Below are positions 1,874 through 49,607 of a stretch of DNA of 64,000 nt, in pieces. This stretch comes from an uncultured Bacteroidales bacterium (GTDB lineage: Bacteria > Bacteroidota > Bacteroidia > Bacteroidales > UBA11471): the NCBI GenBank assembly GCA_944325415.1, contig CALUZW010000011.1, positions 1 to 64,000 on the forward strand, read 5' to 3'. How positions within the stretch are numbered: position 1 is the stretch's first letter; each line of letters starts with the position of its first letter. The position numbers were made by a program, and so were the translations under genes. The notes under the pieces are model-generated. The model was not told where the DNA came from. It made no database searches and saw only the letters and a list, made by a program, of their open reading frames with translations.

Positions 1874-2376
1874 AAAATTTTGCAGCCATAGATTTTGAGA
1901 CCGCCAACAACCGGCGCACCAGCGTTTGCAGCGTGGGTGTCGTTGTCGTGCGCGACGGAGTGATAACCGATACCGTGTACCGGCTCATACATCCTGTACC
2001 CAACTACTATCTGTCGTTTACGACGGCCATTCACGGCCTTACGGCGGCCGATACCGACGGGGCCGACATCTTTCCCGTCGTGTGGGGCGAGATAGTCCCG
2101 CTCATCGAAGGTCTGCCGCTGGTGGCTCACAACAGCCCTTTCGACGAGGGGTGTCTGCGGGCCGTGCATGACTATTATGGTATGCCCTATCCCGGCTATC
2201 GCTTCTTCTGTACTTGCCGGGCATCGCGCCGCCTCTTCGGTAAGGAGTTGCCCGACCATCGGCTGCATACCGTCGCTGCCCGCTGTGGATACGACCTGAC
2301 ACGCCACCACCATGCTCTGGCCGATGCCGAAGCCTGTGCTGCCATAGCCATGCAGATTCTCGGCGACGAGGAGTAG
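1870..2376 (+). CDS. DEDDh 3'-5' exonuclease (DnaQ/epsilon-like)
   Basis: A 168-residue single-domain exonuclease of the DEDDh superfamily, which trims DNA or RNA 3' ends with two metal ions. The ExoI motif is D8-x-E10 (AIDFET), ExoII Asp is D92 in AHNSPFDEG, and ExoIII is a His run (146-148) with D152 in HALAD. The length matches stand-alone epsilon-type domains, with no polymerase or GIY-YIG fusion. I chose ATG 1870 because it overlaps the upstream stop as ATGA and places the ExoI motif at the usual distance from the N-terminus; an in-frame ATG lies at 1861. Translational coupling to the GH28 gene looks positional rather than functional. Confidence 0.88.
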   Translation: MKNFAAIDFETANNRRTSVCSVGVVVVRDGVITDTVYRLIHPVPNYYLSFTTAIHGLTAADTDGADIFPVVWGEIVPLIEGLPLVAHNSPFDEGCLRAVHDYYGMPYPGYRFFCTCRASRRLFGKELPDHRLHTVAARCGYDLTRHHHALADAEACAAIAMQILGDEE

Positions 2377-2513
2377 ACCGCCTCTGCACCGGCCGTGTCG
2401 GGAAGCGAATGTCCGCTCCGGTCGGCGGGAAAATTTTCGTCGTCGCATACTGAAACGTAAGAAACTCCGTTTAGATACATAGCATATTGTTTTTTAATGA
2501 CCCGAATACCGGT

Positions 2514-4928
2514 ATGAACCTGCGTCGTCTTTGTCTGTTGTCGCTCCTGCTCCTCTCTCTTGTTGCGCAGGCGCAGCGCCGTGTCGAACTCTCCGGCCGG
2601 GTTATCGATGCCGAAGGTGCGCCAATGGACCTCGTTACGGTGGCCGTACCTGCCGCTTCGGCCGGGACATTTACCAATGAGAAGGGAGAGTACACGTTGC
2701 GGTTTACCGCGGCCGACACGGTCGAGGTGATATTCTCCTATATCGGTTATCACCGGGTGAGTCGCAAACTGGTCGACCCGGAGGGGAAGGTCTCGCTCAC
2801 GGTGCGCATGTACAACAACGACCGCACGCTCAACGAGGTGCAGATACGGGAGTATCGCCGGCAGATGACGACCTTGCAGAAAATCGACCCCGAAGACTGG
2901 AAGTTGATGCCCGATGCCTCGGGCGGTTCTATCGAGGCCCTGCTGGCCACGATGCCCGGTGTACATTCCAACAACGAGCTGAGTTCGCAATATTCGGTGA
3001 GAGGAGGTAACTTCGACGAAAACATCGTCTATGTCAACGGTATAGAGATTTATCGCCCGCAGCTCATATGCACCGGTCAGCAGGAGGGGTTGAGTTTTAT
3101 CAATCCCGACATGGTGGGGGCGGTGGCATTCTCATCGGGCGGGTATCCGGTGGAGTATGGCGACAAGATGTCGTCGGTACTCGATATAACCTACAAGAAA
3201 CCCGAGGCCTTTGAAGGTTCCGTGTCGGGCAGTTTCCTGGGGGCGAGTGCGTCGGTGGGGCATAACACGGGCCGATTCTCCCAGTTGCACGGATTCCGTT
3301 TCAAGACCAATTCGACCCTTCTCAGTACGCTCGATACCGAGGGCGAGTACAAACCCCGCTTCTTCGACTACCAGACCTATCTTACCTACAAGATAAATTC
3401 CCGTTGGGACGTTGCCCTGCTGGGAAACATATCAAGCAACAACTACCAGTTTATCCCCCAGTCGCGGAGTACCCGTTACGGCAGCATCTCTTCGGCGGCG
3501 CAGTTTACCGTCTATTTCGACGGTAAGGAGCAGGACATATTCCAGACCTATTTCGGTGCCGTTACCCTCAACTATCGCCCTTCGGCGTTTACGACCCTGT
3601 CGCTGCTGGCTTCGGCCTTTACCACGCGCGAAGAGGTTACCTACGACATCTCGGGCGAATATTGGCTCGACGAGCTCGACCTGGCCAACGGTGTGGAGAC
3701 GACCGAGAGTGCCGGTACGCTGGGATACGGCTCTTATCACGAACATGCGCGCAACCGGTTGAATGCCAATGTGTATGCTCTGTCGCTCAAAGGCGATACC
3801 CGTTGGGGTCGGCATACCGTGCGGTATGGCGCCACCTACCAGCGTGAGCGCATACACGACCGTATGCGGGAGTGGGAGTCGCGCGACTCGTCGGGTTACA
3901 CGTTGCCCCATACGGGCGAAGGCATATCGCTCATATCGAGTTTGCGCTCGACACAGGATATCGAGAGCAACCGTCTGTCGGCCTATGTGCAGGAGACTTA
4001 TACGCTCGAACACCGCTCGGGTATATACAACTTTACCGGCGGGGTGCGTCTCTCTTATTGGGATTACAACAACGAGTGCATCGTCTCGCCCCGTGTATCG
4101 GTAGGTTACAACCCCTCCTTCAATCAGCGGCTCACTTTCCGTTTTGCCACGGGTGTCTATTATCAGGCCCCATTTTACAAGGAGTTTCGCGATACGGTGC
4201 AGGACAGTCGCGGAAACTGGGCGGTACGCCTCAACGACCGCATCAGGTCTCAACGTTCGATACATGTGATATTGGGCAGCGATTTCACCTTTCGGGCTCT
4301 CGATCGCCCCTTCAAGCTCACCGGTGAGGTCTACTACAAAAAACTCGACCGGCTCATTTCCTATGAAGTCGACAACGTGCGGGTGTGGTACAGCGGCCAG
4401 AACAACTCCGAGGGTTACATTGCCGGTCTCGACTTGAAGCTCTTCGGTGAGTTTGTGCCCGGAGTCGATTCGTGGCTCACCTTCTCGCTGATGTCTGCCA
4501 AGGAGAAGACTGCATCGGGGTATGTGCCCTTGCCTACCGAGCAGCGGTACAGTGTGGGACTCTTTTTCCAGGACTATGTGCCCCGCTTTCCCAAGTACCG
4601 TTTTTCGCTCAAAGCCATTTGGTCCGACGGTCTGCCGATGGCCGCTCCCCGTAAGGGCCGGGCCGAGGGTTATTTCCGCACCCCGCCCTACCGGCGTGTC
4701 GACATCGGTCTCTCCCGCCGTTTGGCAGGTGGCGAAGACCGCATCATGCAGAAACCCTTTTTCCGGGCATTCAAGAGTATATGGATAGGACTTGATGTGT
4801 TCAACCTGCTCGACTTCGGCAATGTCAATTCCTATTACTGGGTTACCGACATATACAACAACCAAAACGCCGTGCCCAATTATCTCACCGGCAGGCAGTT
4901 CAATCTGAGACTCTCTTTCGATTTCTGA
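2514..4928 (+). CDS. TonB-dependent outer-membrane receptor with carboxypeptidase-like regulatory domain
   Basis: An 804-residue outer-membrane receptor. It has a signal peptide ending about residue 20 (LVAQAQ), a carboxypeptidase D regulatory-like beta-sandwich (about 22-105, GRVIDAEGAPM and FTNEKGEYTLRF), a plug domain (about 120-240, with LLATMPGVHSNNE and YSVRGGNFDENIVYVNG) and a 22-strand-type barrel ending in Phe (RLSFDF), the usual barrel-assembly signal. It is shorter than SusC proteins (about 1000 residues) and no SusD partner follows, so it is the non-Sus type that often carries metal chelates, peptides or vitamins; the substrate is unknown. ATG 2514 is preferred over the in-frame ATG at 2487 because it starts the signal peptide directly. 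Its 3' end overlaps the convergent comEC by 29 bp. Confidence 0.88.
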   Translation: MNLRRLCLLSLLLLSLVAQAQRRVELSGRVIDAEGAPMDLVTVAVPAASAGTFTNEKGEYTLRFTAADTVEVIFSYIGYHRVSRKLVDPEGKVSLTVRMYNNDRTLNEVQIREYRRQMTTLQKIDPEDWKLMPDASGGSIEALLATMPGVHSNNELSSQYSVRGGNFDENIVYVNGIEIYRPQLICTGQQEGLSFINPDMVGAVAFSSGGYPVEYGDKMSSVLDITYKKPEAFEGSVSGSFLGASASVGHNTGRFSQLHGFRFKTNSTLLSTLDTEGEYKPRFFDYQTYLTYKINSRWDVALLGNISSNNYQFIPQSRSTRYGSISSAAQFTVYFDGKEQDIFQTYFGAVTLNYRPSAFTTLSLLASAFTTREEVTYDISGEYWLDELDLANGVETTESAGTLGYGSYHEHARNRLNANVYALSLKGDTRWGRHTVRYGATYQRERIHDRMREWESRDSSGYTLPHTGEGISLISSLRSTQDIESNRLSAYVQETYTLEHRSGIYNFTGGVRLSYWDYNNECIVSPRVSVGYNPSFNQRLTFRFATGVYYQAPFYKEFRDTVQDSRGNWAVRLNDRIRSQRSIHVILGSDFTFRALDRPFKLTGEVYYKKLDRLISYEVDNVRVWYSGQNNSEGYIAGLDLKLFGEFVPGVDSWLTFSLMSAKEKTASGYVPLPTEQRYSVGLFFQDYVPRFPKYRFSLKAIWSDGLPMAAPRKGRAEGYFRTPPYRRVDIGLSRRLAGGEDRIMQKPFFRAFKSIWIGLDVFNLLDFGNVNSYYWVTDIYNNQNAVPNYLTGRQFNLRLSFDF

Positions 4929-7023
4929 CAGCGGGCGATACCGGAGCGACGAAGGCTCCGTCGCTGCGTATGCTGTGGCAGGCTATGCGCAGTCGCCGGC
5001 ACTCCTCTTCGAGCGATTTCCGCTGGAAGTAGGGAAGATTGTGCGCGAGAATGACCTGGCGTATGTCGAATATCTGTCTCACCGGGTCGATTTTTCCCCG
5101 GAATCCCGGCACGACGATGGCGTAGTCGATGCTCATGCGCCGGGGTGAGGTCGTGCCTTTCCATCGGTCGTCGCCAAGCACAAGAAAGCGACTGTCGCCA
5201 AAGACCATGTAGGGCAGGGCTATGGCAAGGTGGCCGTAGGTCGTGGAGTCGGCAACGAACGTGTATTCACCGACCCCGTTTTTTATCCAGAAACGGCCGG
5301 CCTCCTTTTCGATGGTGCGTGTGGGGAGCGTGTCGAGCGGCAGCAGCATGTTACGGCCGTTGTCGATAAAATTGAGCGTGGTGGTACCGCCGCTTTCCTG
5401 ATAGATGGCCCACAAGTTGCGGAGAGGAGCGGGGCCACCCCAGGTATCGGCCAAAAGAAAAATCAGGGCCGTGCCCAGCAGAACGACGACGCCCCGTGCC
5501 TGGCGCGAAAGCAAAACCGCCCCGCCGCCGAAGATGAGAATAAAGCAGAGAACCAGTTCGGCCGGCTCAATCCATATACCCTGTATCGAACTCCATGCAT
5601 ATCCGTCGACCAGGCGTGAGAGGGCATCGAGCCCTTCGGCCATACGGTTTACGCAGCCGGCGAGGAACCCGCTCTGTACCCCGGTTGTCGCAAGGAGCAG
5701 CCACAGAAAGCCGCTGCCGAGCAGTATGGGCAGTAACGGTACGACGATGAGGTTGGTGAGTAGGCCGGTAAGCGGCAGTAGGTGGAAGTAGTAGATGACC
5801 AGTGGCAGGGTGCCCACTTGCGCAGCAGCCGAGACGGCCAGCAGCGAGGCGATGCGGCGCGACAGCCGGCCGGTATGAGGCAGCCATTCGAAGAGAGGCC
5901 GATAAAACAGCAGTATGGAGAAGACCGACAGAAAACTCAGCTGGAATCCTACCTGGAAAAGGGTGTGGGGGTCGTGGAGCAGCATGAGAAAAGCGGCGAC
6001 AAACAGGCTGTTCATGGGGCGGGCCTTGCGCCCGATGACGATACCGGCCAGCACGACCGATGCCATGACACAGGCTCTGACGACCGAGGGCGACAGTCCG
6101 GTGAGAAATGCGTATGCCCAAAGCAGTGCCATGATGACGACGGCGCGCAGCCGACGCAGGTGCAGCCACGACAGCGGAGCCAGCAAGGCTGCCGCTAGTG
6201 CCCACACGATACCCAGATGCAGACCGCTTACGGCCAGCACGTGCGACAGTCCGGCTACGGAGAATGCCTCCCGTTGTTCCTCGTCGATTTCGCCGGTATA
6301 TCCCAGCAGCAAGGCTTTCAGTATGCTGCGGGCAGCGGGGGAGAAGCCTCCGCTGTCGATGCGTGCCAGAGCGTCGTCTCGGAGTTGCATGGCCCTTTGC
6401 GACAGAGTCGGGCTTTCGTCCCGGTCAATACGTCGCCACCCTCCCTCGGCCAGATATTGGGTGTAAAGGTATCCCCGGTGGCGCATCAGGGAGGCATAGT
6501 CAAACGCTTCGGGGTTCTGCTTGTTGGCGATGGGCGCAATGCGGGGGCGGAAAAGCAGGAGATCGCCTGCCTGCGGGTATCCGTCGAGGCTGTCGCGTTC
6601 GATACGCAGCAGCACGGCAATGTCGGCGGCCGTGAGTTGACGGTCGGTCTCGACCCTGGCGATGATGGTGCTTCGGCAACTGATGCTCTGGCCGCTGTCG
6701 GGGTCGGTCTCGTCGATGCGTGCCACGGCGTAGGGGCAGTTGTTAAGTGAAATATCGGGTATCTCCTGCCGGTTGCTTACTTGCCAGGTCCAGGCACCGG
6801 CGGTGAGAAACAGGGCATAGCAGGCGATGGCAAAGTAGGAGCGGTCGCGGAAACGGGTGTCGATGCGATGCAGTGAGCCGATGTGCCGTATGGCAAAGAA
6901 GAGGCCGATGACCAGCGGCACTCCGATAAACATCGCCGGCAAAAACTCTTGCAGGGCAATGCCGGCCGCAAAGGGTACGGTCAGTCGGGCGAATGGAGCT
7001 TCATCGAGCAACTGTCGTTTCAT
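4900..7023 (-). CDS. comEC: ComEC/Rec2-family DNA-uptake membrane protein
   Basis: A 707-residue polytopic inner-membrane protein of the ComEC/Rec2 family, which forms the channel for single-stranded DNA entry in competent bacteria. An N-terminal pair of membrane segments precedes a soluble DUF4131/OB-like region (about 90-190) and then the Competence domain, with the diagnostic SHVLAVSGLHLGIVWAL at about 260-275 and many further membrane helices to about residue 520. The C-terminal 180 residues sit where Gram-positive ComEC has a metallo-beta-lactamase fold, but I see no HxHxDH metal motif. It is downstream of rpe on the same strand, 112 bp away. Whether this organism takes up DNA cannot be told from this gene. 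Confidence 0.9.
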   Translation of the reverse strand: MKRQLLDEAPFARLTVPFAAGIALQEFLPAMFIGVPLVIGLFFAIRHIGSLHRIDTRFRDRSYFAIACYALFLTAGAWTWQVSNRQEIPDISLNNCPYAVARIDETDPDSGQSISCRSTIIARVETDRQLTAADIAVLLRIERDSLDGYPQAGDLLLFRPRIAPIANKQNPEAFDYASLMRHRGYLYTQYLAEGGWRRIDRDESPTLSQRAMQLRDDALARIDSGGFSPAARSILKALLLGYTGEIDEEQREAFSVAGLSHVLAVSGLHLGIVWALAAALLAPLSWLHLRRLRAVVIMALLWAYAFLTGLSPSVVRACVMASVVLAGIVIGRKARPMNSLFVAAFLMLLHDPHTLFQVGFQLSFLSVFSILLFYRPLFEWLPHTGRLSRRIASLLAVSAAAQVGTLPLVIYYFHLLPLTGLLTNLIVVPLLPILLGSGFLWLLLATTGVQSGFLAGCVNRMAEGLDALSRLVDGYAWSSIQGIWIEPAELVLCFILIFGGGAVLLSRQARGVVVLLGTALIFLLADTWGGPAPLRNLWAIYQESGGTTTLNFIDNGRNMLLPLDTLPTRTIEKEAGRFWIKNGVGEYTFVADSTTYGHLAIALPYMVFGDSRFLVLGDDRWKGTTSPRRMSIDYAIVVPGFRGKIDPVRQIFDIRQVILAHNLPYFQRKSLEEECRRLRIACHSIRSDGAFVAPVSPAVRNRKRVSD

Positions 7024-7135
7024 GGTACAAACGGATGTCGGACGAACCTCTGTGGGGGAGGCGCTGTCCGGTGGTGCGATTTATCGCCGGGAAAGTGAGC
7101 GAACTCTGTGGTACCGCTTTTCGGCGGAAGCCGTT

Positions 7136-7786
7136 TTACAGCTCTTTCAGTCGGGCAATGGTCTCTTCTGGATTATCGACCGAGAATACGCTGTTTCCGC
7201 ACACCAGAATGTCGGCCCCGGCACCGACGACGAGAGGCGCCGTTTCGAGGTTGATGCCGCCGTCGACCTCGATGAGGGCGGTGGCGTTTTTACGGAGAAT
7301 CATCTCTTTGAGACGGGCTATCTTCTCGGTTGTCTGGGGTATGAACCGCTGGCCGCCGAATCCCGGATTTACCGACATGAGCAGTATCATGTCGGCATCG
7401 GTAATGATGTCTTCGAGCAGTACTACCGGCGTATGCGGGTTGAGTGTGATGCCGGCTTTCATGCCGGCTTTTTTTATCTCTTGCAGGGTGCGGTGCAGGT
7501 GCAGGCAGGCCTCATAGTGTACATTTACCATGTAGACGCCGAGGTCTTGCAGGCGGGAAATGAACTTCTCGGGTTGGGTAATCATGAGATGCACGTCGAG
7601 CGGCTTGCGGGTAAGCGGGGCGATGGCCTCAATCACGGGGAAGCCGAAAGAGATGTTCGGCACGAACACTCCGTCCATAATATCGAGGTGTAGCCAGTCG
7701 GCCTTGCTGCGATTGATCATGTCGATGTCGGCTTGCAGGTTGGCAAAGTTGGCCGACAGCAGAGAGGGGGCGATAAGAGGTTTCAT
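7136..7786 (-). CDS. rpe: Ribulose-phosphate 3-epimerase
   Basis: A 216-residue TIM-barrel enzyme that interconverts ribulose 5-phosphate and xylulose 5-phosphate in the pentose phosphate pathway. Family signatures are all present: APSLLSANF at the N-terminus, HLDIMDGVFVPNISFG with the catalytic Asp and metal-binding residues, VNPGFGGQRF, and EVDGGIN with the second catalytic Asp. Length is normal. The start at 7786 gives MKPLIAPS, as in homologues; an upstream in-frame ATG at 7813 would add an unconserved tail. It follows the ECF sigma factor and a small gene on the same strand and precedes comEC. Confidence 0.96.
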   Translation of the reverse strand: MKPLIAPSLLSANFANLQADIDMINRSKADWLHLDIMDGVFVPNISFGFPVIEAIAPLTRKPLDVHLMITQPEKFISRLQDLGVYMVNVHYEACLHLHRTLQEIKKAGMKAGITLNPHTPVVLLEDIITDADMILLMSVNPGFGGQRFIPQTTEKIARLKEMILRKNATALIEVDGGINLETAPLVVGAGADILVCGNSVFSVDNPEETIARLKEL

Positions 7787-7859
7787 GACAGGTGCATCTT
7801 TGTAGTAACACAAAGATACACCATAGAGTCGGATTTACGAAAAAGATTGTGCGAAAAAA

Positions 7860-8018
7860 TCAGTTCAGGGCATAATGAGCCATCGAGCCGGCCGGTGGCG
7901 GAGTGGGTGAGTAGGTACGTGCCGCCATTCTCAGAAGCATGAGTGTGGCGTTGCTCGGGCCACGCGGTGTCGTCTTCTTGTCGTATCCGGTCGAAGAGGG
8001 AGTAGTTGTTTTTTTCAT
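7860..8018 (-). CDS. Small hypothetical protein, 52 residues
   Basis: A short frame of 53 codons including the stop. It starts MKKTTTPSS, has a Thr/Lys-rich N-terminal half, a short hydrophobic stretch (NATLMLLRMAARTY, about 23-36) and a Pro-rich tail ending ALN. The form (basic head, a helix with Leu/Met, then a Tyr) resembles small conserved Bacteroidales proteins I remember near this ECF sigma factor, but I cannot confirm that by search. It fills the 300-bp space between the sigma factor stop (8092) and the rpe start, on the same strand. A longer overlapping frame (7783-8049) in another register looks like its shadow. Function unknown. Confidence 0.5.
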   Translation of the reverse strand: MKKTTTPSSTGYDKKTTPRGPSNATLMLLRMAARTYSPTPPPAGSMAHYALN

Positions 8019-8091
8019 AGGCGGTACGTTTTTTCGTTACTGTTATCAAAACGTATACGCCTGCCGGTTTAGTATGTTTCGGTCCTCTTTT

Positions 8092-8685
8092 TTAGAAAGA
8101 AAGTTGTATCTGATGGTCTTCGGCCATTTTTCTGATGTTGAGCAGTGCATAGCGCATACGCCCCAGAGCCGTGTTGATGCTCACCTGTGTGGCGTCGGCT
8201 ATCTCTTTGAAGCTCATGTTTTTGTAGTATCGCATGATAAGCACTTCGCGCTGGTTTTCGGGCAGGGCGGCTACCAGTCGGCGTATGTCGGCGTGTATCT
8301 GGCGGGTGATGATGGAGTCTTCTATGGTACCTTCGCTCAGTTCCTTGCGGTTGAAGATGTCTTTCTCTTCACTGTCGTCGTTCGATACCAGATTCTCGTT
8401 CCGCTCCTGGCGGTAGTGGTCGATAATGAGGTTGTGGGCAATGCGGGTTACCCACGACGAAAATTTGCCCGCCTCGACATAGCGGCCCTGCTTGATGGTT
8501 GTTATTACCTTGACAAAGGTCTCCTGGAAGATATCTTCGGTGAGATCATTGTCTTTGACGGTGTAGAATATGTAAGAGTAGATACGATTTTTGTATCGTG
8601 TCAGCAAGATGTCGAATGCTTGGTTGTTACCCTCTGAATACAATACTACCAACTCTTCATCGGATAGTTTTGACAAATACTTCAT
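8092..8685 (-). CDS. RNA polymerase ECF-type sigma-70 factor
   Basis: A 197-residue sigma factor with only regions 2 and 4. Region 2 spans about 25-95 (AFDILLTRYKNRIYSYIF, DIFQETFVKV, FSSWVTRIAHNLIIDHYR), and region 4 about 135-185 (LPENQREVLIMRYYKNMSFKEIAD and the helix-turn-helix INTALGRMRYALLNIRK). It would redirect RNA polymerase to its own promoter class. No anti-sigma gene is next to it, unlike the FecI/FecR pairs common in this phylum, so it may be the general RpoE-like type of Bacteroidales. A good Bacteroidetes promoter lies at 8771-8802. Confidence 0.93.
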   Translation of the reverse strand: MKYLSKLSDEELVVLYSEGNNQAFDILLTRYKNRIYSYIFYTVKDNDLTEDIFQETFVKVITTIKQGRYVEAGKFSSWVTRIAHNLIIDHYRQERNENLVSNDDSEEKDIFNRKELSEGTIEDSIITRQIHADIRRLVAALPENQREVLIMRYYKNMSFKEIADATQVSINTALGRMRYALLNIRKMAEDHQIQLSF

Positions 8686-8770
8686 TACGGCTAAAAAATA
8701 TGGTTTCAGCGTAGTATTTTCTCGATAGGCATTCCGGTTTTAATGACGATACAATTTTATTTTTACCCTG

Positions 8771-8802
8771 CAAACTTAGAGAATCGTTTTCAGAAAAACA
8801 AA
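8771..8802 (-). promoter_or_regulatory. Bacteroidetes-type promoter for the ECF sigma factor
   Basis: Read on the minus strand: TTTG (8799-8802), 20 bases, then TAAGTTTG (8771-8778), matching the TTTG/TAnnTTTG pattern. It gives an 80-90 base leader before the start at 8685. The rest of the 309-bp space to the divergent gene at 8995 is AT-rich and holds only that gene's promoter. Confidence 0.65.
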
Positions 8803-8950
8803 CTTTTGTGTCATTTTTTTGTTTTTCTACCTTTTTGAAGCGGTACGAAACTCCTTCATTACGAGCGTCAAATGTGGCATGAGATGGAGTGAGGGTTCTT
8901 TCTCTTCCCAAAAATGGGGAGCCATGTAGTCAATGTCGAAGAAATAATCG

Positions 8951-8958
8951 TATCTTTG
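8951..8958 (+). promoter_or_regulatory. Promoter -7 element (TATCTTTG)
   Basis: TATCTTTG is a perfect TAnnTTTG element 37 bases before ATG 8995. A clear TTTG upstream element is lacking at the usual distance. Confidence 0.5.
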
Positions 8959-8994
8959 CTTATCTTAAAAATTCAAACTAAAAACAACGCTTAT

Positions 8995-9894
8995 ATGAAA
9001 CCGACACTTTTTGTTCTGGCCGCCGGCATGGGCAGCCGTTATGGCGGGCTCAAACAGCTTGACGGGCTGGGTCCTAATGGCGAAACCATCATGGACTATT
9101 CGATTTACGATGCTATCCGGGGTGGATTCGGCAAGGTCGTTTTTGTCATACGTCATCTGTTCGAAGATGATTTCCGGGAAAAAATCATCAAGAAATATGC
9201 TCACGTCATACCCGTAGAGCTTGTCTTTCAGGAGCTTGACTATCTTCCGGCCGGCTTTACCGTGCCCGAAGGCCGGGTGAAACCCTGGGGTACCAATCAC
9301 GCCGTACTCATGGGTAAAGATGTTATCAAGGAACCTTTTGCCGTGATAAATGCCGACGACTTCTACGGCCGCGACAGTTTTGCCGTCATTGCCGATTATC
9401 TCAAAAACCTCGACGGCAAGCACGACGACTACTGCATGGTGGGTTATCGGGTAGGCAATACCCTCTCCGAGAGTGGTTCGGTTTCGCGAGGTATATGTGA
9501 GACCGATTCGGAAGGCTTCCTTACTTCGGTGGTAGAGCGCACCCAGATAGAGCGACGCGATGGACAGGTCATGTACAAAGACGGTGAAATTTGGGTGTCA
9601 GTCGACGAGAATACGCCTGTCTCGATGAATATGTGGGGATTCACGCCCGACTATTTCCGTCATTCCGAAGACTATTTTATCGGTTTCCTCCGCGAGAATG
9701 CCGGTAACATCAAGGCCGAATACTTCATTCCGCTTATGGTCAATTACCTTATTACAAATAAGATATCGACCGTTAAGGTGCTTGATACGACGGCTAAATG
9801 GTTCGGCGTCACCTATGCCGAAGACCGTCCCTCGGTAGTGGCCCAGATACGTGCGCTCATCGATGCCGGCGAATACCCCGAAAAACTTTTCTGA
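8995..9894 (+). CDS. Sugar-phosphate nucleotidyltransferase family protein
   Basis: A 299-residue Rossmann-like nucleotidyltransferase of the NTP_transferase superfamily, expected to join a nucleotide to a sugar 1-phosphate. The N-terminal nucleotide-binding loop is LAAGMGSRYGGLKQ at about 6-19, a variant of GxGTR, followed by GPNGETIMDYSI; a metal-binding Asp pair lies in AVINADDFYGRD (about 118-129). The usual RmlA/GalU PK motif is modified, so the sugar substrate is not predictable. The start at 8995 removes 27 upstream codons that lie across the promoter. A strong terminator follows at 9921. Confidence 0.85.
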   Translation: MKPTLFVLAAGMGSRYGGLKQLDGLGPNGETIMDYSIYDAIRGGFGKVVFVIRHLFEDDFREKIIKKYAHVIPVELVFQELDYLPAGFTVPEGRVKPWGTNHAVLMGKDVIKEPFAVINADDFYGRDSFAVIADYLKNLDGKHDDYCMVGYRVGNTLSESGSVSRGICETDSEGFLTSVVERTQIERRDGQVMYKDGEIWVSVDENTPVSMNMWGFTPDYFRHSEDYFIGFLRENAGNIKAEYFIPLMVNYLITNKISTVKVLDTTAKWFGVTYAEDRPSVVAQIRALIDAGEYPEKLF

Positions 9895-9920
9895 CGCTCC
9901 TCCCGTTGCGATAGCCTTAA

Positions 9921-9959
9921 AGAGGCCGCTTCCACAAATTATGGAAGCGGTCTCTTTTT
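9921..9959 (+). terminator. Intrinsic terminator after the nucleotidyltransferase gene
   Basis: AGAGGCCGCTTCCA pairs with TGGAAGCGGTCTCT around a 7-base loop (one G-T-type mismatch) and is followed by six T's. It separates the nucleotidyltransferase gene from the LPP20/PEGA cluster. Confidence 0.9.
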
Positions 9960-10003
9960 TATATAAAAATAAAATATCAATACCTTATTTTCCATAAAAA
10001 TTG

Positions 10004-10011
10004 TATTTTTG
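10004..10011 (+). promoter_or_regulatory. Promoter -7 element before the LPP20/PEGA cluster
   Basis: TATTTTTG matches TAnnTTTG and lies 26 bases before ATG 10038, directly after a terminator, so transcription of the cluster probably begins here. No clear -33 TTTG is visible. Confidence 0.5.
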
Positions 10012-10037
10012 CGAAGCAGGATTTTTTTCCGAGTTAT

Positions 10038-11876
10038 ATGATTAAGAGAATAGTCGTTTGTTTATTCATAGTACTCTGTGTCGTATCGGAAATCTCGGCA
10101 CAGAGCATATCGGAGATAAAGGCGAACAACGCTTATCTTTGGGGCGAAGGCAGGGGGGTAACCCTTACCGAAGCCGACCGTGCGGCGTTGGACGACCTGA
10201 TTACTCAGATTTCTGTAACCGTAGAAAGCCGGTACAGTAAGGTCGACGAGAACGTTGTAGATAAAGAGGGGGTAAGTACGCAGAGTTCGTTCAAGGCCGT
10301 ATTGCAGACCTATTCCAACGCTACATTGCAGAATACCGAACGTTTTGTTATCAGTAACGAGCCCGATGCGCATGTGTTCCGTTTTGTGAAAAAAAACGAT
10401 GTCGACCGCATCTTTGCCTCGCGCCGTACCAAGGTCGAGGATATGGTATCTTTTGCCTTGCGGGCCCGAAACGACGGCAAGATTGATGAAGCCTTACGGA
10501 ATCTTTATTGGGCCTATTGCCTACTGAAAAGCCTGCCCTCTTCCTCTGAAATAACCTACGACAATCAAGGGCAGTCGTGTCTGTTGATAACCTGGATACC
10601 TGAACAGATCAGACAGATTTTTTCGTCGATAGAGATTACCCGTCAGCCGATGCCCGACGGAGAGACCGAGAATATGGCTCTGCTGAATATTACCTGCGAC
10701 GGAAAACCGGTGAGCAGTTTCGACTACACCTATTTCGACGGCCGCAATTGGAGCAACATTTACAGCGCCAAAGACGGGTTGGGGGTGATAGAGTTGTTGC
10801 CCGGCATGGCGACCGACAATATACAGATACGCTGTGAATATGAATTTGCCGGAGAGGCGCATATCGACAAGGAGATAGAGAGCGTCGTCAAGGTCATGAA
10901 GGGAACGGCGTTCAGAGATGCCTACATCTGGGTGCATCGCACAGCCGAGCCGCAGATGGCCACAGCCACTTGCACCCCTTCGGCTACATCTGCGGTTGCC
11001 GAGTCGGCCCCGGAAGTTGCCGATGCGGGCGAGATCAGTTGTCTCGAAGGTGAGGCCGCCGAGTATTACGAAGTGCGAATCGGCCGTATATTGGATGCCG
11101 TGCAGAGCAAGAGTTACGACACGGTGAGGCCTCTCTTTACCGAGCAGGGTTGGGATATGTTTGAGCGCCTGCTTGCCTATGGCCGTGCCCGTCTGTTGGA
11201 TACCTCTTCTCTGAGTTTTATCGAGGCCGATGGCAAGGTTATCTGCCGGAGTGTACCGATGAGTTTCTCTTTTGCAAATAACAACCGCAAATTTGTTGAA
11301 GATATCGTCTTCACGTTTGACGAAGAGAAAAAGGTCGAGAGTCTCGCTTTCGGTTTGGGGCAGGAGGCCATGGAAGATATTCTGTACCACTCGGTATGGG
11401 CCGAAAAGTCCCGCATATTCCTCATGAGTTTTCTTGAAAACTACAAGACGGCCTACGCTTTGAAACGGCTCGATTACATTCGCGACATCTTCGACGATAA
11501 TGCCGTCATCATTACCGGTGCGGTAACCCGGCGCATTACGGGCGATGTGGAGTTGAACAGCTATCGCACCAACCAGTATGTCCGGTACAACCGGCAGACC
11601 AAGGATCAGTATCTCCGCAACCTGGCCCGCTGTTTCGACAGCAACGAGTTTATCAACATACGCTTCGGCAACAACGATGTGGTGAAGGCCGGAGCCGGTG
11701 GTGAGCTTTATGGTATACAGATAAAGCAGGACTATTACAGTACCAATTATGGCGACCAGGGCTACCTCTTCCTGATGGTCGATCTCAACGACCCTGACAG
11801 ACCTGTCATCAAGGTGCGTACCTGGCAACCCGAGAAAGACCCCAATTTCGGCCTTTACGATATAGGAATGTTTTGA
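10038..11876 (+). CDS. Exported LPP20-like protein with C-terminal NTF2-like domains
   Basis: A 612-residue exported protein of unknown function. A signal peptide (1-21, ending SEISAQ) leads into an LPP20/FlgP-like region (about 22-130) with the pattern of an A-rich helix, EGRGVTLTEADRAALDDL. A middle beta-rich part (about 165-295) is followed by an Ala/Ser/Pro linker (about 300-335), then two segments that look like NTF2-type folds (about 340-455 and 470-612); the last contains YGIQIKQDYYSTNYGDQGY and ends in a WQPE stretch. It is the first gene of the cluster and 63 bp precede the next. A periplasmic or surface location is inferred from the signal peptide. The domain calls are by eye and moderate in confidence. 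Confidence 0.8.
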   Translation: MIKRIVVCLFIVLCVVSEISAQSISEIKANNAYLWGEGRGVTLTEADRAALDDLITQISVTVESRYSKVDENVVDKEGVSTQSSFKAVLQTYSNATLQNTERFVISNEPDAHVFRFVKKNDVDRIFASRRTKVEDMVSFALRARNDGKIDEALRNLYWAYCLLKSLPSSSEITYDNQGQSCLLITWIPEQIRQIFSSIEITRQPMPDGETENMALLNITCDGKPVSSFDYTYFDGRNWSNIYSAKDGLGVIELLPGMATDNIQIRCEYEFAGEAHIDKEIESVVKVMKGTAFRDAYIWVHRTAEPQMATATCTPSATSAVAESAPEVADAGEISCLEGEAAEYYEVRIGRILDAVQSKSYDTVRPLFTEQGWDMFERLLAYGRARLLDTSSLSFIEADGKVICRSVPMSFSFANNNRKFVEDIVFTFDEEKKVESLAFGLGQEAMEDILYHSVWAEKSRIFLMSFLENYKTAYALKRLDYIRDIFDDNAVIITGAVTRRITGDVELNSYRTNQYVRYNRQTKDQYLRNLARCFDSNEFINIRFGNNDVVKAGAGGELYGIQIKQDYYSTNYGDQGYLFLMVDLNDPDRPVIKVRTWQPEKDPNFGLYDIGMF

Positions 11877-11939
11877 TAGAGAAATAAACCCCATCTATTC
11901 ATTAAAAGTTGTGCCCGACACAATTCAGGGCAGTAGATT

Positions 11940-12488
11940 ATGAGACGAATTTTTATGATGGCATTGGTTATCGCAGCTGTGGGCTTGGTATCAAGTTGCG
12001 GCAGTTCCAAGACAGCACAGTCTGAGGTATATGAAACCCCTTGCTCGGGTCCCGGATTCCGCACCGAAGCATCACATTTCAGAGCATCGGCATCGGCCAT
12101 TGCCGGTAACGAAGATGTAGCCCGCAAGCAGGCTACGGCATCGGCCCGTCAGGAGTTGGCAACAATTATCAACACGACCATCAAGGCCGTGGCCGACAAT
12201 TATGCCAAAAATTATGTCAAAGGCGAAGAAGCTGAGAGTACCCAACGTTATGAAGACCTGGGCCGCACTGTTGTAAACCAACGCCTCACCGGCTCGCACA
12301 CGATATGCGAGAAATATCGCAAAAATGCCAACGGCACCTACACCTGCTATGTGTGCGTGGAGTTGGCTTCCGAAGATGTGCTGGCAGCCTTGAATAGCTC
12401 GATAAGCGATGACTCGAAACTTCGCATCGACTATGACTACGAAAAGTTCAAGAAAGTATTCGAAGAAGAGATGGCCAAAATGCAATAA
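11940..12488 (+). CDS. LPP20-family lipoprotein
   Basis: A 182-residue lipoprotein: the signal ends in LVSSC with the lipid Cys at 20. The mature part has the LPP20 core, an Ala/Glu-rich helix (NEDVARKQATASARQELATII, split here at its centre by family convention) followed by beta strands (YTCYVCVELASEDVLAAL) and a charged C-terminal helix. LPP20 proteins are envelope lipoproteins without known enzymatic activity. This is the single-domain version of the domain that also appears in the flanking genes, so the cluster seems to have expanded by duplication. A stem-loop follows at 12510. Confidence 0.85.
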   Translation: MRRIFMMALVIAAVGLVSSCGSSKTAQSEVYETPCSGPGFRTEASHFRASASAIAGNEDVARKQATASARQELATIINTTIKAVADNYAKNYVKGEEAESTQRYEDLGRTVVNQRLTGSHTICEKYRKNANGTYTCYVCVELASEDVLAALNSSISDDSKLRIDYDYEKFKKVFEEEMAKMQ

Positions 12489-12497
12489 TCGCATAGC

Positions 12498-12541
12498 CCC
12501 CTGTAACAGGGGAGAGGTATCGTGAAAGATACCTCTCCTTT
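12498..12541 (+). terminator. Tandem stem-loops inside the LPP20/PEGA cluster
   Basis: Two adjacent hairpins lie between genes: CCCCTG-TAA-CAGGGG (12498-12512), and a stronger GGAGAGGTATC/GATACCTCTCC stem (12511-12538) followed by TTTCCT. They share two bases. The next gene starts only 13 bases later, so this may be a partial terminator or an mRNA-stabilising element that sets gene ratios. Confidence 0.65.
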
Positions 12542-12553
12542 CCTCTTGTATCG

Positions 12554-13531
12554 ATGAGAAAACACATCTTTGCCATCTGTCTTGCGTGGACCGGCTGCAT
12601 TGCCGTCTTCTCGCAGAATCTTGCCGCCGAGATGCAATGGCGAGTGCAAGGTGTCGATACCTTGCCGGCTTGGGTGTTGTCGACGGTCGGTTGTAATGAC
12701 GAGTTGGGCGTTTCCGAACCGGGCCTGAGCCGGGGCGAAGCCCGCAGTCAGGCCATCGCCCGGGCAGCCTTGTGCCATCTTCTGCATGGCGGTTGTGTGG
12801 CACAGTGCGTCGAAGAGATTTTTTCTAACAGCGAGGCTGGCAGCCAGACAGTGACCACCGACATTCGGCGCATGATGAATGTGGTTGTCGATTATCCCTT
12901 CGACTATCAGATACGTGCCGAACATGTCTCGCCTTTCGGCGAATTTTTTTGCCGGGTGGCTATATATCCGAGACCCGACGGGCAATGCCGCATTCGGGGC
13001 AATATGGAACTGTTCTACACCTATCGGTTTGAGAAGACCGACGATTGGGCCGGATATTATCAGACCGAGTTGCACGTCGACGGGCTTGACAGCGTGATGT
13101 TTCTGCGCGAAGAGATACACCGCCTGCAACAGCAGTCCGACTATCGGTCGTGGTGCAACGGCCGTCCGATAGATAAGGGAAAAATCTATTGCACCTATGC
13201 CGACGGGGGCGATACGATCGCCTTTGAACCTCGACCCATGCGTCGGCTTGTCAAAGGTTTCTGGCAAGCTTATATACTGCCACACCTCGATGCTCTTTTC
13301 TACGAAGAGGAGGGCGAGACAACGATAAAGTCGTTGATGGAGAACTACCGGGGAGCAATGAAAAACATGGGCCGGAGTATCTCCATAGAGCTGCCGCTTG
13401 CCGTCGATACGGAGTCGGGCGGTATAGCCGATAACTATCTGCATATACGGTGCCGTCTGCGCGAAAGCATACCGGCCCATAAAAATATCTCCGAAAAGAG
13501 TCGCGATTCCTTTTCGGAACCAAACCAGTAA
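12554..13531 (+). CDS. Exported protein with LPP20-like domain
   Basis: A 325-residue protein with a signal peptide (1-21, ending AVFSQ). Residues about 28-140 carry an LPP20-like domain: a strand-rich start (WRVQGVDTLPAWVL), the helix LSRGEARSQAIARAAL, and a strand block ending EFFCRVAIYP. The C-terminal half (about 150-325) is not recognised; it has aromatic segments (FYTYRFEKTDDWAGYY) and six or more Cys scattered through the protein, which could form disulfides after export. The next gene begins six bases after its stop, so the two are co-translated. Function unknown. Confidence 0.75.
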   Translation: MRKHIFAICLAWTGCIAVFSQNLAAEMQWRVQGVDTLPAWVLSTVGCNDELGVSEPGLSRGEARSQAIARAALCHLLHGGCVAQCVEEIFSNSEAGSQTVTTDIRRMMNVVVDYPFDYQIRAEHVSPFGEFFCRVAIYPRPDGQCRIRGNMELFYTYRFEKTDDWAGYYQTELHVDGLDSVMFLREEIHRLQQQSDYRSWCNGRPIDKGKIYCTYADGGDTIAFEPRPMRRLVKGFWQAYILPHLDALFYEEEGETTIKSLMENYRGAMKNMGRSISIELPLAVDTESGGIADNYLHIRCRLRESIPAHKNISEKSRDSFSEPNQ

Positions 13532-13536
13532 AAGAA

Positions 13537-15861
13537 ATGAATTCACGTCGAAGATTTTGCCTAAACATACTTGTATTCTCTCTGTTGTTCGGTTTCGTGT
13601 GGACCGATTTGTCGGCACAGAACATCTCGGTCAAGGATTTCCGCCTGCTCGAAACCGACCTGACCGCCAATACGGTCGGCACCATGAAGCGTGACCAGAA
13701 CAATGAGGTGGCTGCTCTGATAAAAATTGTAACCACCGAGACCGGCTTTGTATTCGATGGTGGTATGCTGGGTACCGTGGCTACCGTGCAAAAGACGGGT
13801 GAGATATGGCTTTATGTGCCACAGAAAGCCCGCAAGATTACCATCTCGCATCAGCAGCTGGGCATGTTGCGCGACTATTACTATCCTTGTACCATCGAGG
13901 CAGGCCGCACCTATGAAATGATTTTGGCTACGGGAAAGGTTACGACCATCGTGCAGGAAGATGCCGGCGGACAGTATGTGGCAATGACGCTCACTCCGGC
14001 CAATGCCGAGGTATACATCGACGACATACTCACCGAAGTCTCCGGCGGCACCGTATCGAAACTGTTGAAATATGGAAAACACACCTATCGCATAACCGCC
14101 CCTCTTTACGAGACCGAGGTCGGACAGTTTGACATCTCTTCGCATGGCCGCACCGACCTGAAAATTGCCCTGCGTCCTGCTTACGGGCAGTTGCAGCTGA
14201 CCTCTACACCCCCGGGAGCCGAAGTCTATATCGACGACGATTACAAACCTGCCGGAACAACCCCCTTTACGACCGAACGTCTGCCCAAGGGGAAACACAA
14301 GCTGCAATTCAGATTGTCCTCATATAAACCGTTGAAACAGACGGTCGATGTTGCCGGCGATGCTTCGGTGCAGACCATCTCGGCCACCTTGGAACCCAAC
14401 TTTGCCGAGGTTTCGATACAGGCCCCCGGTAATGCCGACATATATATCAATCAGGAATTGAAAGGTTCTGGCCGTTGGAGCGGCCGTCTCAATACAGGTC
14501 TCTACACGGTCGAGGCGCGTAAGGAGTCGCATTACCCTACCCGGAAGACGGTCGACATCAGAGCGGGCGAAACAACCGAAATCTTGCTGGAAGCACCCGT
14601 GCCCCGTTATGGCTCTATAAACATCAATACTACCCCTATTGGGGCAAAAGCCTATATCGACGGTGAGTTGCTGGGAGAGACCCCGAACATATTCCGGAAT
14701 ATACTGGTGGGTACTCGCACGCTTAGGGTGGAGAAGAACGGCTATGTGGCCGAGACGCGAACCGTAACCATAGAGGAGGGGAAGGTAACTCCTCTTGACC
14801 TGACCTTGCAGAACGGCGGTTCGGTAACCATTCATAGTCAGGTTCCCGGTACTGAGGTCTTTGTTGACGGAACTCATGTGGGGAATGCACCTTGTATCTA
14901 TACGGCCGCAGCCGGTCGTTATACCGTGACGGCGCGGGCTCGCGGATACAGAGATGCGACACGTTCGGTGGTGATTGTGGCGGGACAGTCCAATACCGAG
15001 ACAATATCGCCCGTGCCACTCACCGGAGCTGTGCAGATAACGGTTTATCCCTCATCGGCCAATATTTATGTCGACGGTTCCTACATAGGTACCTCTTCGT
15101 GCCGTTTTGAAGGGACTGCCGGAACCCATACGGTAACCGTTAGTGCTTACGGATACAAGTCGAAAACCGAGGAGATAACCCTCAGGGCCGGCGAAGAGTC
15201 GTCGACAGCTGTCGTGTTGAAGGCCAAGCGCAAACGCCTCTCGGACTATTACAACTCGGAGGACCTCTTCTCGCTGGGTGGTGGCTGGGATATATTGTGG
15301 ACCGATAAATGCAGCATGGGAGGATACCTTTCGTTCAAAATGGGGCAGGAGCAGTTTACCTGGCTCACGGCTGTCTTGAACATCGGTGGCTACAAAATGG
15401 GTAAGAATCGCGGAGGAAAGTTTGCCGCGATTATGGACGATGCCTATTCTGGTGCGGTCGAAAGTAATCCCGAAATAGACGAAATCGATTCTGAAAATTC
15501 ATTGACGACCTATACGCAGATACCTATCTCTCTGGCATTGCGCTTGCGACTGGGCGGGGGCGACTGGGGAGCTTCCTATATAGGGGTGCAGGGCAGTTAC
15601 AACTTTAATATGGGCGATAATGTCGACCTGAATGTTGTAAATCGCCGCAACTATTCAGTGGGGGCACAGTTCGGATTCTGTATAAAGCGGGTTATCGACA
15701 TCGTTTTCTTCTATACCCACGATTTGAGTCCGGCCTACAACCAGCAGTATATATACGAGAATATGCCCGATTTTTACAATAGCTACGAGAGTCATATCAA
15801 CAAGCGTTGGCGTTTCGGAACGGCTTTTGTCATATACATACCATTCTCCGATGCCCGGTAG
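13537..15861 (+). CDS. Six-repeat PEGA-domain envelope protein with C-terminal barrel-like region
   Basis: A 774-residue exported protein. After a signal peptide (about 1-27) and a beta-rich N-terminal domain (about 28-140), six PEGA-type repeats follow at about 145, 216, 289, 357, 427 and 497, roughly 70 residues apart; each has a P-x-x-A-x-(V/I)-Y-(I/V)-D core, e.g. PPGAEVYIDD, PIGAKAYIDG and PSSANIYVDG. PEGA domains are small surface beta-folds in envelope proteins. The last 210 residues are rich in Gly and alternating aromatic/hydrophobic stretches, ending FVIYIPFSDAR, as in a small outer-membrane barrel. This suggests a barrel-anchored rod; the barrel is an inference. It follows the LPP20-like gene by five bases. 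Confidence 0.88.
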   Translation: MNSRRRFCLNILVFSLLFGFVWTDLSAQNISVKDFRLLETDLTANTVGTMKRDQNNEVAALIKIVTTETGFVFDGGMLGTVATVQKTGEIWLYVPQKARKITISHQQLGMLRDYYYPCTIEAGRTYEMILATGKVTTIVQEDAGGQYVAMTLTPANAEVYIDDILTEVSGGTVSKLLKYGKHTYRITAPLYETEVGQFDISSHGRTDLKIALRPAYGQLQLTSTPPGAEVYIDDDYKPAGTTPFTTERLPKGKHKLQFRLSSYKPLKQTVDVAGDASVQTISATLEPNFAEVSIQAPGNADIYINQELKGSGRWSGRLNTGLYTVEARKESHYPTRKTVDIRAGETTEILLEAPVPRYGSININTTPIGAKAYIDGELLGETPNIFRNILVGTRTLRVEKNGYVAETRTVTIEEGKVTPLDLTLQNGGSVTIHSQVPGTEVFVDGTHVGNAPCIYTAAAGRYTVTARARGYRDATRSVVIVAGQSNTETISPVPLTGAVQITVYPSSANIYVDGSYIGTSSCRFEGTAGTHTVTVSAYGYKSKTEEITLRAGEESSTAVVLKAKRKRLSDYYNSEDLFSLGGGWDILWTDKCSMGGYLSFKMGQEQFTWLTAVLNIGGYKMGKNRGGKFAAIMDDAYSGAVESNPEIDEIDSENSLTTYTQIPISLALRLRLGGGDWGASYIGVQGSYNFNMGDNVDLNVVNRRNYSVGAQFGFCIKRVIDIVFFYTHDLSPAYNQQYIYENMPDFYNSYESHINKRWRFGTAFVIYIPFSDAR

Positions 15862-15907
15862 TACGATATGAAACTCTTCCGGGAAAAAGGACTGAAAAAA
15901 ATAAAAT

Positions 15908-16453
15908 ATGAAAAAGATCGTGCCGAAACAGATAATGCAGACAGTAATCTTGTTGTTCTTCCTCTCCGTTACTGCGGGTTGTGAAGAGAACTTCGACCCC
16001 GATACATGGAACGGGGTAATTGTGTCGGGCAATTACGAAGGGACGATGACGATTCTTATCGATGGGTATAATCTGGTTTCGGGACAGTCCGAGGAACTCT
16101 CTTCGATGCCGATTGCCTTCTCGGTTGCGCAGAACGGGACGGTGAAGATATCCATCAACTACGACACCTATTATACCTGCGATGGTGAAAGTTACGTGGT
16201 AAACATGCAGTCGACGATAAATGATATTGAGGCTGTGGTCGATAGTGGTAATGACAGACGGGTACTCTTGTCGGCAGAGAATCCGAGCGCCAGTTGTGTC
16301 ATTACCGAGGAGATATGTGTCATCTCATCACTGTCGGGTTATGTCGATGCCGATGGAACGCTGCGGGTCGAGCTGTCGGGAATTACCAACAGCGACCGCA
16401 CCGTAGAGAGTGTAGTTGATATTATCCTGTCGGCCGGTCGCGTGCAGGCATGA
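15908..16453 (+). CDS. Small lipoprotein, function unknown
   Basis: A 181-residue lipoprotein with signal ending VTAGC (lipid Cys at about 25). The mature part is predicted all-beta, with alternating strands and Gly/Ser turns (GNYEGTMTILIDGYN, GTVKISINYDTYYTCDGE), like small sandwich lipoproteins of this phylum. It is 46 bases after the PEGA gene with no terminator between, so it is probably the last gene of that cluster, and it ends 27 bases from the convergent tadA. I do not recognise a family. Confidence 0.72.
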   Translation: MKKIVPKQIMQTVILLFFLSVTAGCEENFDPDTWNGVIVSGNYEGTMTILIDGYNLVSGQSEELSSMPIAFSVAQNGTVKISINYDTYYTCDGESYVVNMQSTINDIEAVVDSGNDRRVLLSAENPSASCVITEEICVISSLSGYVDADGTLRVELSGITNSDRTVESVVDIILSAGRVQA

Positions 16454-16480: not shown

Positions 16481-16939
16481 TCAGCGGCGTTTCTTGAAAA
16501 AGTCGGTGAGTAGGCGGGCACACTCATCCTGCATGATGCCGTGTGTTACCTCGGTCTTGGGGTGCAGGGCGGCCGTTGCAAAGCGACGGTATCCCCGTTT
16601 CTCGTCGGCAGCCCCGAATACGAGCCGTCCCATTTGGGCCCAGCCTATGGCGCCGGCGCACATCACGCAGGGTTCGAGGGTAACGTAGAGGGTACATTCG
16701 GGCAGGTATTTGCCACCCAATACATCGGCTGCTGCCGTGATGGCTTGCATCTCGGCATGGGCCGTAACGTCGCGAAGTGTCTCGGTAAGGTTATGTGCGC
16801 GGGCTATAATGCGCTCTTTGTGTACGATGACGGCTCCTACGGGAATCTCTCCCCGCTCGCCGGCAGCCTGGGCTTCGGCAAGAGCCTGCTGCATATAGTA
16901 TCGGTCGCGTTGTGCGGCCGGCGATTGTTCTCTCTCCAC
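16481..16939 (-). CDS. tadA: tRNA-specific adenosine deaminase
   Basis: A 152-residue zinc deaminase that converts A34 to inosine in the tRNA-Arg(ACG) anticodon. The zinc and catalytic sites are complete: HAEMQAI (His ligand and proton-shuttling Glu) and PCVMCAGAI (two Cys ligands). The substrate-loop region RLVFGAADEKRG is typical of TadA rather than free-nucleoside deaminases. It starts five bases after the SIMPL gene stop, so the two form an operon. Confidence 0.93.
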   Translation of the reverse strand: MEREQSPAAQRDRYYMQQALAEAQAAGERGEIPVGAVIVHKERIIARAHNLTETLRDVTAHAEMQAITAAADVLGGKYLPECTLYVTLEPCVMCAGAIGWAQMGRLVFGAADEKRGYRRFATAALHPKTEVTHGIMQDECARLLTDFFKKRR

Positions 16940-47153: not shown

Positions 47154-47171
47154 AGTCCGTTGTGCTGGTGG

Positions 47172-48155
47172 TTATGCGTTGGGTTGTGTGTCTTTGTCGT
47201 TGTCGGTGGCCGGTTGTTGCGGCTGTTCTTGTCGGGGCGACGGGTTATACATGTTGATGGTCATGGCCGTGAGCATATTGCGGTATACGGCGTTGAGCTG
47301 GGCCATGTATTGGGTCATCTTTTCTACCTCTTCGCAGTAGCGTGAACTGTCTTGCATCGAGTCTTCGTACATTTGGCGAATGTTGCGCAGCCCTACGTTT
47401 ACACGGTCGATGTTGTCGAGTTGCGAGCTGATGCCTTTCAACTGTATCTCGTAAATCGTGTTCAGTCCGGCAATGTTGCGGTTGAGCGATTCCATCTGTT
47501 CGACATATCCCTGCGTGTGTTGGGTGATGCCGTCGCTGTTGTCGGTGATGTGGCGGTAGGAGTTGAGCAGCAGGTTCGACACGTCGGTGAGCGACTGGGT
47601 GGCCTGGCGGAACTGCAACATTTGTTCCGAGATGGCGGCCATCTGGTCGAGATACTTCTGTGTGGCGTCGGTGAGTTCGGCCATGCGCGAAATCTGTTCG
47701 GCGGCTGCCGAGAGTTTCTGTATGCTTTCCGACAGATTCCTGGTGTCTTCTTCACTTACCTCGATATTCGAGGGGATACCGGCGATGCGTCGGGCGTCGG
47801 CACCCGAGACGGCTGTGTTTCCGTCGCCGGCCAGATTGCCGTTAACGACGATGCCTCCGCCGCCTTTGAAGTCGGGCCGGTCTTCGGGGTCTTTCGATGC
47901 CAGTACGGGGAATACCTCTTCCCAGTGGTATTCCTTGGCCGGGCGGTCAAATGCGGTGAGGATAAACATCAGGACCTCTACACCCATACCTATCGAGAGC
48001 ATGACGTTGCCTCCGGGGAGGTGCAGAATTTTGAAAAGGGCACCCCAGATGACGATGGCGGCACCTATACTGTATGCAAAGTTGAAAAACCGTTTTCCCG
48101 AGTCTCCCGAGAGGAATTTTTCGATGCTGTTTTTATATCTTTTATATTTTCCCAT
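47172..48155 (-). CDS. gldL: Type IX secretion motor protein GldL/PorL
   Basis: A 327-residue inner-membrane protein with two helices (about 22-43 and 50-70). The second contains GMGVEVLMFILTAF with Glu60, the position of the motor Glu in GldL of Flavobacterium, thought to take part in proton flow. The C-terminal cytoplasmic part (about 120-300) is largely helical, with repeated LSxQLDN- and MEQ-type segments suggesting coiled coil. A GGGGIVVNGN linker lies near 97-106. Start 48155 is the ATG giving MGKYKRYKN; an upstream ATG adds four residues. Confidence 0.95.
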   Translation of the reverse strand: MGKYKRYKNSIEKFLSGDSGKRFFNFAYSIGAAIVIWGALFKILHLPGGNVMLSIGMGVEVLMFILTAFDRPAKEYHWEEVFPVLASKDPEDRPDFKGGGGIVVNGNLAGDGNTAVSGADARRIAGIPSNIEVSEEDTRNLSESIQKLSAAAEQISRMAELTDATQKYLDQMAAISEQMLQFRQATQSLTDVSNLLLNSYRHITDNSDGITQHTQGYVEQMESLNRNIAGLNTIYEIQLKGISSQLDNIDRVNVGLRNIRQMYEDSMQDSSRYCEEVEKMTQYMAQLNAVYRNMLTAMTINMYNPSPRQEQPQQPATDNDKDTQPNA

Positions 48156-48182
48156 GATGGCTGACAAATTTTTTTTCGGTTC

Positions 48183-49598: not shown

Positions 49599-49607
49599 AT
49601 ACATAGC

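Follow-up and report, generated by a model that had tools for sequence, protein, structure and literature searches.

Lpp20 of H. pylori, FlgP of Campylobacter and FlgT of Vibrio share a common SHS2-like fold (PMC12222027). Members of this family that form rings carry an insert that separates the SHS2 helix from the second strand and that in FlgP is a beta-hairpin (PMC12222027). The L,D-carboxypeptidases Csd6, Pgp2 and Bd1075 (Pfam Cds6_C) carry an NTF2 domain that was reported to bind peptidoglycan fragments in Pgp2 and to direct localisation in Bd1075 (PMC8938487). Also to be compared are the PEGA-domain proteins and the C-type-lectin/FGE targets of diversity-generating retroelements (DGRs), such as the Thermus aquaticus variable protein (PMC6328139). 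A search of the open-access literature found no paper joining a PEGA domain with a DGR, or describing LPP20 with PEGA in Bacteroidales.

A cluster related to all of these groups was identified in a 64,000-nucleotide stretch of DNA from an uncultured gut Bacteroidales bacterium (contig CALUZW010000011.1), referred to here as the window. Its five ORFs all lie on the + strand, from 10038 to 16453, and a signal peptide was recognized by eye in each product. P1 (10038-11876) is an exported protein of 612 aa, P2 (11940-12488) a 182-aa lipoprotein (SSC-GSSK) with an LPP20-like domain, P3 (12554-13531) an exported protein of 325 aa whose LPP20-like region is N-terminal, P4 (13537-15861) an exported protein of 774 aa, and P5 (15908-16453) a 181-aa lipoprotein. 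Only P2 and P5 contain a lipobox. The upstream neighbour is a nucleotidyltransferase-like gene (8914-9894) ending at an intrinsic-terminator-like hairpin (9919..9957, + strand; a 16-pair stem, then a T run), and the downstream neighbour is a convergent tadA-type (cytidine/adenosine-type) deaminase gene (16481-16939). The preliminary description, which had placed five same-strand genes, including a small lipoprotein, between a strong terminator and a convergent gene, was thus borne out in its layout.

The Bacteroidota -7 element has the consensus TAnnTTTG. It occurs 24 times on the + strand of the window; between genes of the cluster the only match is the exact one in the candidate P1 promoter TATTTTTG (10004..10011, + strand). 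A strong second hairpin, overlooked previously, lies between P2 and P3 (12508..12541, + strand), and a single simple five-gene transcript is therefore not to be assumed. This structure recurs in relatives with a different sequence: the median folding z score was -4.9 in 16 P2-P3 gaps of relatives versus -0.8 in 120 same-strand control gaps (Mann-Whitney p 0.0018), with z < -3 in 11 of the 16 against 25% of the controls, and T runs follow several of the relatives' hairpins. Given this hairpin, the expression levels of P2 and P3 may differ. A sugar-nucleotidyltransferase-like gene (300 aa) was seen near P1 in five loci (window 8914-9894, L038, L061, L064 and L072), and it occurs in congeners without the cassette too. 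Elsewhere in the window (45585-50564, minus strand), an apparent T9SS/gliding block with GldM-, GldL-, GldK- and PorP-like genes was noticed by eye.

An AlphaFold model of P1, obtained from a 66-sequence alignment (pLDDT 81), contains an LPP20-like domain (residues 33-118), helices (119-164), a beta domain (173-300) and two NTF2-like domains (338-438 and 450-604). Residues 33-118 follow a strand-helix-(loop, helix)-strand-strand order, with helices at 43-64 and 81-96, strands at 101-106 and 111-118, and a low-confidence loop at 67-81. The window P1 matches PF02169 (LPP20) with an E value of 0.0019, under the curated cut-off; the family is matched by 64 of the 66 P1 family members (best 2.5e-8) and by 5 of 37 P2 relatives (best 1.4e-6), and the P1 and P2 orthologues of B. 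finegoldii are annotated at NCBI as 'LPP20 family lipoprotein'. LPP20 membership of the P1 N-terminus and of P2 is assigned on these matches at the family level only. Among P3 relatives PF02169 matches are weak (2 of 32, best 0.019), and direct profile comparison of P3 with the P1 N-terminus gave no significant signal. A P3 profile of 32 members matched the P2 profile with 94.6% probability (E 7e-8, one comparison), a match that was weak when the P3 profile had 4 to 7 members, and the P2 profile matched the P1 N-terminus with 87.6% probability. The N-terminal 150 residues of P3 bear the pattern LPxW…GISDP…A..QA..RA, and P3 is probably a member of the LPP20 superfamily. The claim of three adjacent LPP20-like proteins thus stands for P1 and P2 from Pfam and their relatives, P3 being tied to P2 solely by profile-profile comparison, and the three regions are linked by these comparisons. 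Among the 'lipoprotein bases' once proposed, just P2 is a lipoprotein.

P1 at its N-terminus, P2 and probably P3 therefore resemble Lpp20, FlgP and FlgT, the proteins being exported and P2 a lipoprotein. They differ from them in that no flagellar context was seen here and in the large size of P1, which has several domains, two of them NTF2-like. The presence of three LPP20-like proteins in one cluster could point to a FlgP/FlgT-type ring or disk associated with the outer membrane, in which P1-P3 subunits would bear P4 spokes, no flagellum being involved. The fold common to FlgP, Lpp20 and FlgT counts for such a ring, P2 also weakly matches FlgT_N (0.064), and the hairpin behind P2 could let this protein be made in excess. 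However, at the position of the insert the model of P1, the only one of the three modelled, has a disordered, low-confidence loop and a helix and lacks the FlgP-type beta-hairpin, and we consider a ring unlikely.

The stretch 450-604 of P1 is matched by Pfam Cds6_C, which is present in 48 of the 66 family members. Structure comparison of this stretch (VIA-align) gave Z scores of up to 14.1, with 13.9 for Csd6 (4xzz) and 12.6 for Bd1075 (7o21), and both NTF2-like regions show a helices-then-sheet pattern in the model. Because the VIA rows cover mainly residues 450-604, the names given to the LPP20, beta and first NTF2 domains are based on Pfam matches, comparison of profiles and secondary structure. 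Unlike Csd6, Pgp2 and Bd1075, P1 carries LPP20 and beta domains instead of an enzyme: no L,D-carboxypeptidase catalytic domain was matched by Pfam in P1 or among the families of its 66 members. A sequence search of solved structures revealed no convincing relative of P1 or P4.

P4 begins with a conserved 105-residue beta domain, designated P4N (13624..13932, + strand; model strands at 30-132), which shows a mean column identity of 65% in an alignment of 38 sequences and is covered by no Pfam family. It is followed by six tandem PEGA domains (13969..15216, + strand; PF08308, E 1.8e-58, 194.7 bits versus a curated cut-off of 20.8). The model also has six PEGA modules (residues 145-560, pLDDT mostly 68-95), in agreement with the six repeats reported earlier. 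The chain was modelled as consecutive beta domains, for which Foldseek gave tandem Ig-like surface and pilus proteins among its best hits. P4 is thus a PEGA-domain protein by its canonical repeats but differs from others in the P4N domain before them, the exchangeable ends after them and its genetic tie to P1. The C-terminal module (residues 563-774, about 210; 15223..15858, + strand), suspected to be a barrel, has three homologues counting itself, the others being in L038 and L103 only. The 'barrel-like end' of the preliminary description was not confirmed: pLDDT is < 50 over most of the module, Pfam gave no hit, and strand alternation is mild (shuffle p 0.02). Recognizable barrel ends do occur in some P4 relatives, such as L118 (Autotransporter, 8e-8), and a crude rule finds an aromatic-terminated, barrel-like tail in 41 of 92 P4N proteins. 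In P5, the lipobox cysteine is followed by the acidic stretch EENFD, which resembles the signal for surface export in Bacteroidota lipoproteins; the sequence in the counterpart from congener G003, the only other P5 found (59% identical), is C-E-K-N-F-D.

Scanning genome contigs with the P1 alignment yielded 373 relatives, whereas a single-sequence P4 scan gave no match. The best 80 of the 373 loci were examined, together with whole-genome loci; these 80 are nearly all labelled as Bacteroidales-type organisms, and two labelled Lachnospiraceae look like mislabelled bins. Of the 87 P1 genes in the fetched loci, 63 are accompanied by P4N, at a distance of up to 3 kb in 45 cases, and 45 by a P2-family gene. 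The sample is anchored on P1 and includes near-duplicates (L039 and L135 are apparently the same contig), and the gene calls, made with a Python ORF caller, are crude. In an evenly sampled set of 393 Bacteroidales genomes, full-length P1 was found in 32, P3 in 45 and P4N in 35. P1 and P4N occur together in 25 of the 393 versus 2.85 expected (Fisher p 2.4e-25, relatedness uncorrected), and P1 and P3 in 17 versus 3.7 expected (p 8e-10); as genomes are not independent, these p values are indicative only. P4N lies at < 5 kb from 21 of 36 P1 genes and at < 1 kb from 10 of them. In an independent search with P3, 14 of 30 short loci showed it immediately after a P2-family gene, in the same orientation. 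There are thus two conserved blocks, P1-P4N and P2-P3(-transglutaminase-like protein).

The order LPP20-LPP20-LPP20-PEGA, expected earlier to be conserved, proved rare: it was found in the window, in G003 and, with one insertion, in L103 (Muribaculaceae; P1-c2-P2-P3-P4), and what is kept are the two blocks. G003 has the complete P1-P2-P3-P4-P5 order, including the P2 orthologue, and the order in B. finegoldii is DUF6175-P1-P2-P3-c2. No matches to P1, P3 or P4N were found in congeners G001, G004, G005 and G006; in these and in G002 the upstream nucleotidyltransferase gene is present and is followed by different genes. The cassette is accessory within the genus. Conservation does not extend to P5 or the downstream neighbour, as would be expected of unrelated envelope genes adjacent by chance. 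Such chance adjacency is very improbable, however, in view of the strong P1-P4N and P2-P3 linkage and co-occurrence across families and of the full cassette in G003. The core parts recur jointly in dozens of related genera and have apparently not been described as a system.

The P4N proteins share their N-terminal part and differ in their ends. PEGA domains are present in 53 of 55 P4N proteins, and 17 of the 55 end in an FGE-sulfatase (C-type-lectin-like) domain; further ends include beta-barrels, Sel1 repeats, TonB_C and LRR_5. Congener G002 has about seven P4N paralogues, one of which lies beside a DGR (L048, contig G002:C30, 2081-5986). This element comprises a template (TR, 2081-2210), a reverse transcriptase (2223-3212; RVT_1, 1.9e-14), an accessory protein with an HRDC domain (3209-3673) and a VR (3809-3938), which is the C-terminal end of a P4N-PEGA-FGE gene on the minus strand (3809-5986). 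The 130-nt TR/VR pair has 24 mismatches, 22 of them at TR adenines, and by this signature the protein is identified as a DGR target, like the C-type-lectin/FGE targets already described. One branch of the family thus presents a variable, probably ligand-binding domain. In contrast to that congeneric protein, the window P4 has no FGE end, and no DGR reverse transcriptase was matched in its bin (G000, 83% complete) or in G003. We considered whether every FGE-ended relative is a DGR target and rejected this: a reverse transcriptase lies beside an FGE-ended gene in G002 only, and a search of nine FGE-type genomes gave no match in six and weak reverse transcriptase matches in three (E about 1e-13 to 1e-14).

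We tentatively propose, at somewhat less than an even chance, that the cluster encodes a platform anchored to the wall and the outer membrane that presents an exchangeable, probably ligand-binding module. P2 would be a lipoprotein on the inner face of the outer membrane and P1 a periplasmic scaffold bridging to the wall. The LPP20-like domains may bring P1 and P2 together, with P3 joining them, and the C-terminal NTF2-like domains of P1 could hold the assembly on peptidoglycan. P4N would dock P4 onto the platform, and the six-PEGA stalk would hold the C-terminal module in place at the outer membrane or passing through it, this module being exchangeable across the family (beta-barrel, FGE/C-type-lectin fold or repeats). 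P5 would be an accessory lipoprotein, possibly surface-exposed. The proposal is suggested by the co-occurrence and linkage of P1 and P4N, the pairing of P2 and P3, the LPP20 domains, the Csd6/Bd1075-like NTF2 domain, the PEGA chain, the swappable ends and the DGR of G002; a retroelement-diversified end in a congener fits what is expected of a ligand-recognition domain. An assembled envelope structure, as first envisaged, remains plausible from the co-occurrence, the LPP20-like kinship and the modelled PEGA chain, although its terminal barrel is unproven and relatives have other modules in that position.

Several observations argue against surface display. The end of the window P4 is not FGE, and both the window bin and G003 lack such a DGR reverse transcriptase. 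The TonB_C end of one relative points to the periplasm. As to a route for surface export, P4 has no lipobox, and Pfam and NCBIfam scans report no T9SS C-terminal domain. An outer-membrane barrel at the end of P4 would most simply place the PEGA stalk in the periplasm and not outside, whereas an FGE or DGR-diversified end is expected outside, and this conflict of topology leaves a tether confined to the periplasm, linking the outer membrane to peptidoglycan, as a close rival. Such a tether would serve envelope integrity or shape and display nothing on the surface: the LPP20 proteins would sit at the outer membrane, the NTF2 domains would hold onto peptidoglycan, PEGA rods would cross the periplasm and a barrel would be the outer-membrane anchor. 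It is consistent with the likeness of the P1 C-terminal domain to its counterparts in Csd6 and Bd1075, both peptidoglycan enzymes, with the barrel-like tails of the P4N proteins, some of them Pfam barrels, and with the lack of an acidic export signal after the P2 cysteine. On the other hand, FGE and DGR-diversified ends better suit ligand recognition, and a general envelope function would hardly be expected to be so patchily distributed, even among members of one genus; we regard the tether as a possible reading, held with some doubt.

Apart from P4N, the domains of the cluster are known; no description of the P1 architecture, of P4N or of the conserved combination was found in the open-access literature. 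The display platform may be extended to a broader, doubtful proposal: an as yet undescribed apparatus for surface recognition in Bacteroidales would have P1-P2-P3 and the P4N proteins as its base and stalk, and its tips would be interchangeable and in places retroelement-diversified. Scattered 'LPP20 family' and 'PEGA domain' hypothetical proteins of gut and rumen Bacteroidales become one testable envelope system, P4N is defined as a new conserved domain, and the P1 architecture unites LPP20-type domains with NTF2 domains of the peptidoglycan-enzyme type. The system is also a possible anchoring apparatus for the retroelement-diversified protein of a gut commensal.

Neighbouring genes differ among lineages. 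CHASE2 and FecR-like genes lie beside some relatives (clusters c7/c8), and TIR-like genes were seen by eye in L046, which could suggest a sensing or conflict module whose envelope proteins would sense some event and pass the signal on to partners; yet no such partner occurs in the window or in G003, the partners are lineage-specific, and this role is quite unlikely.

A frequent partner of P1 and of P2-P3 is the c2 family of exported proteins, mostly of 475-885 aa (L040 2361-5018, L043 1-2382, L057 10655-12175 and 29 further loci). It has no Pfam match, is absent from the window and was taken to resemble a transglutaminase on account of its Cys…His…Asp motifs. The Prevotella-type loci L075, L080, L085, L094, L097, L101 and L115 have the fixed order P1, LPP20-like (c5), CHASE2, FecR-like and c2. 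L046 (G028, 5646-13721) encodes a PEGA protein and a protein with the C-terminal NTF2 part of P1 alone, flanked by the two TIR-like genes.
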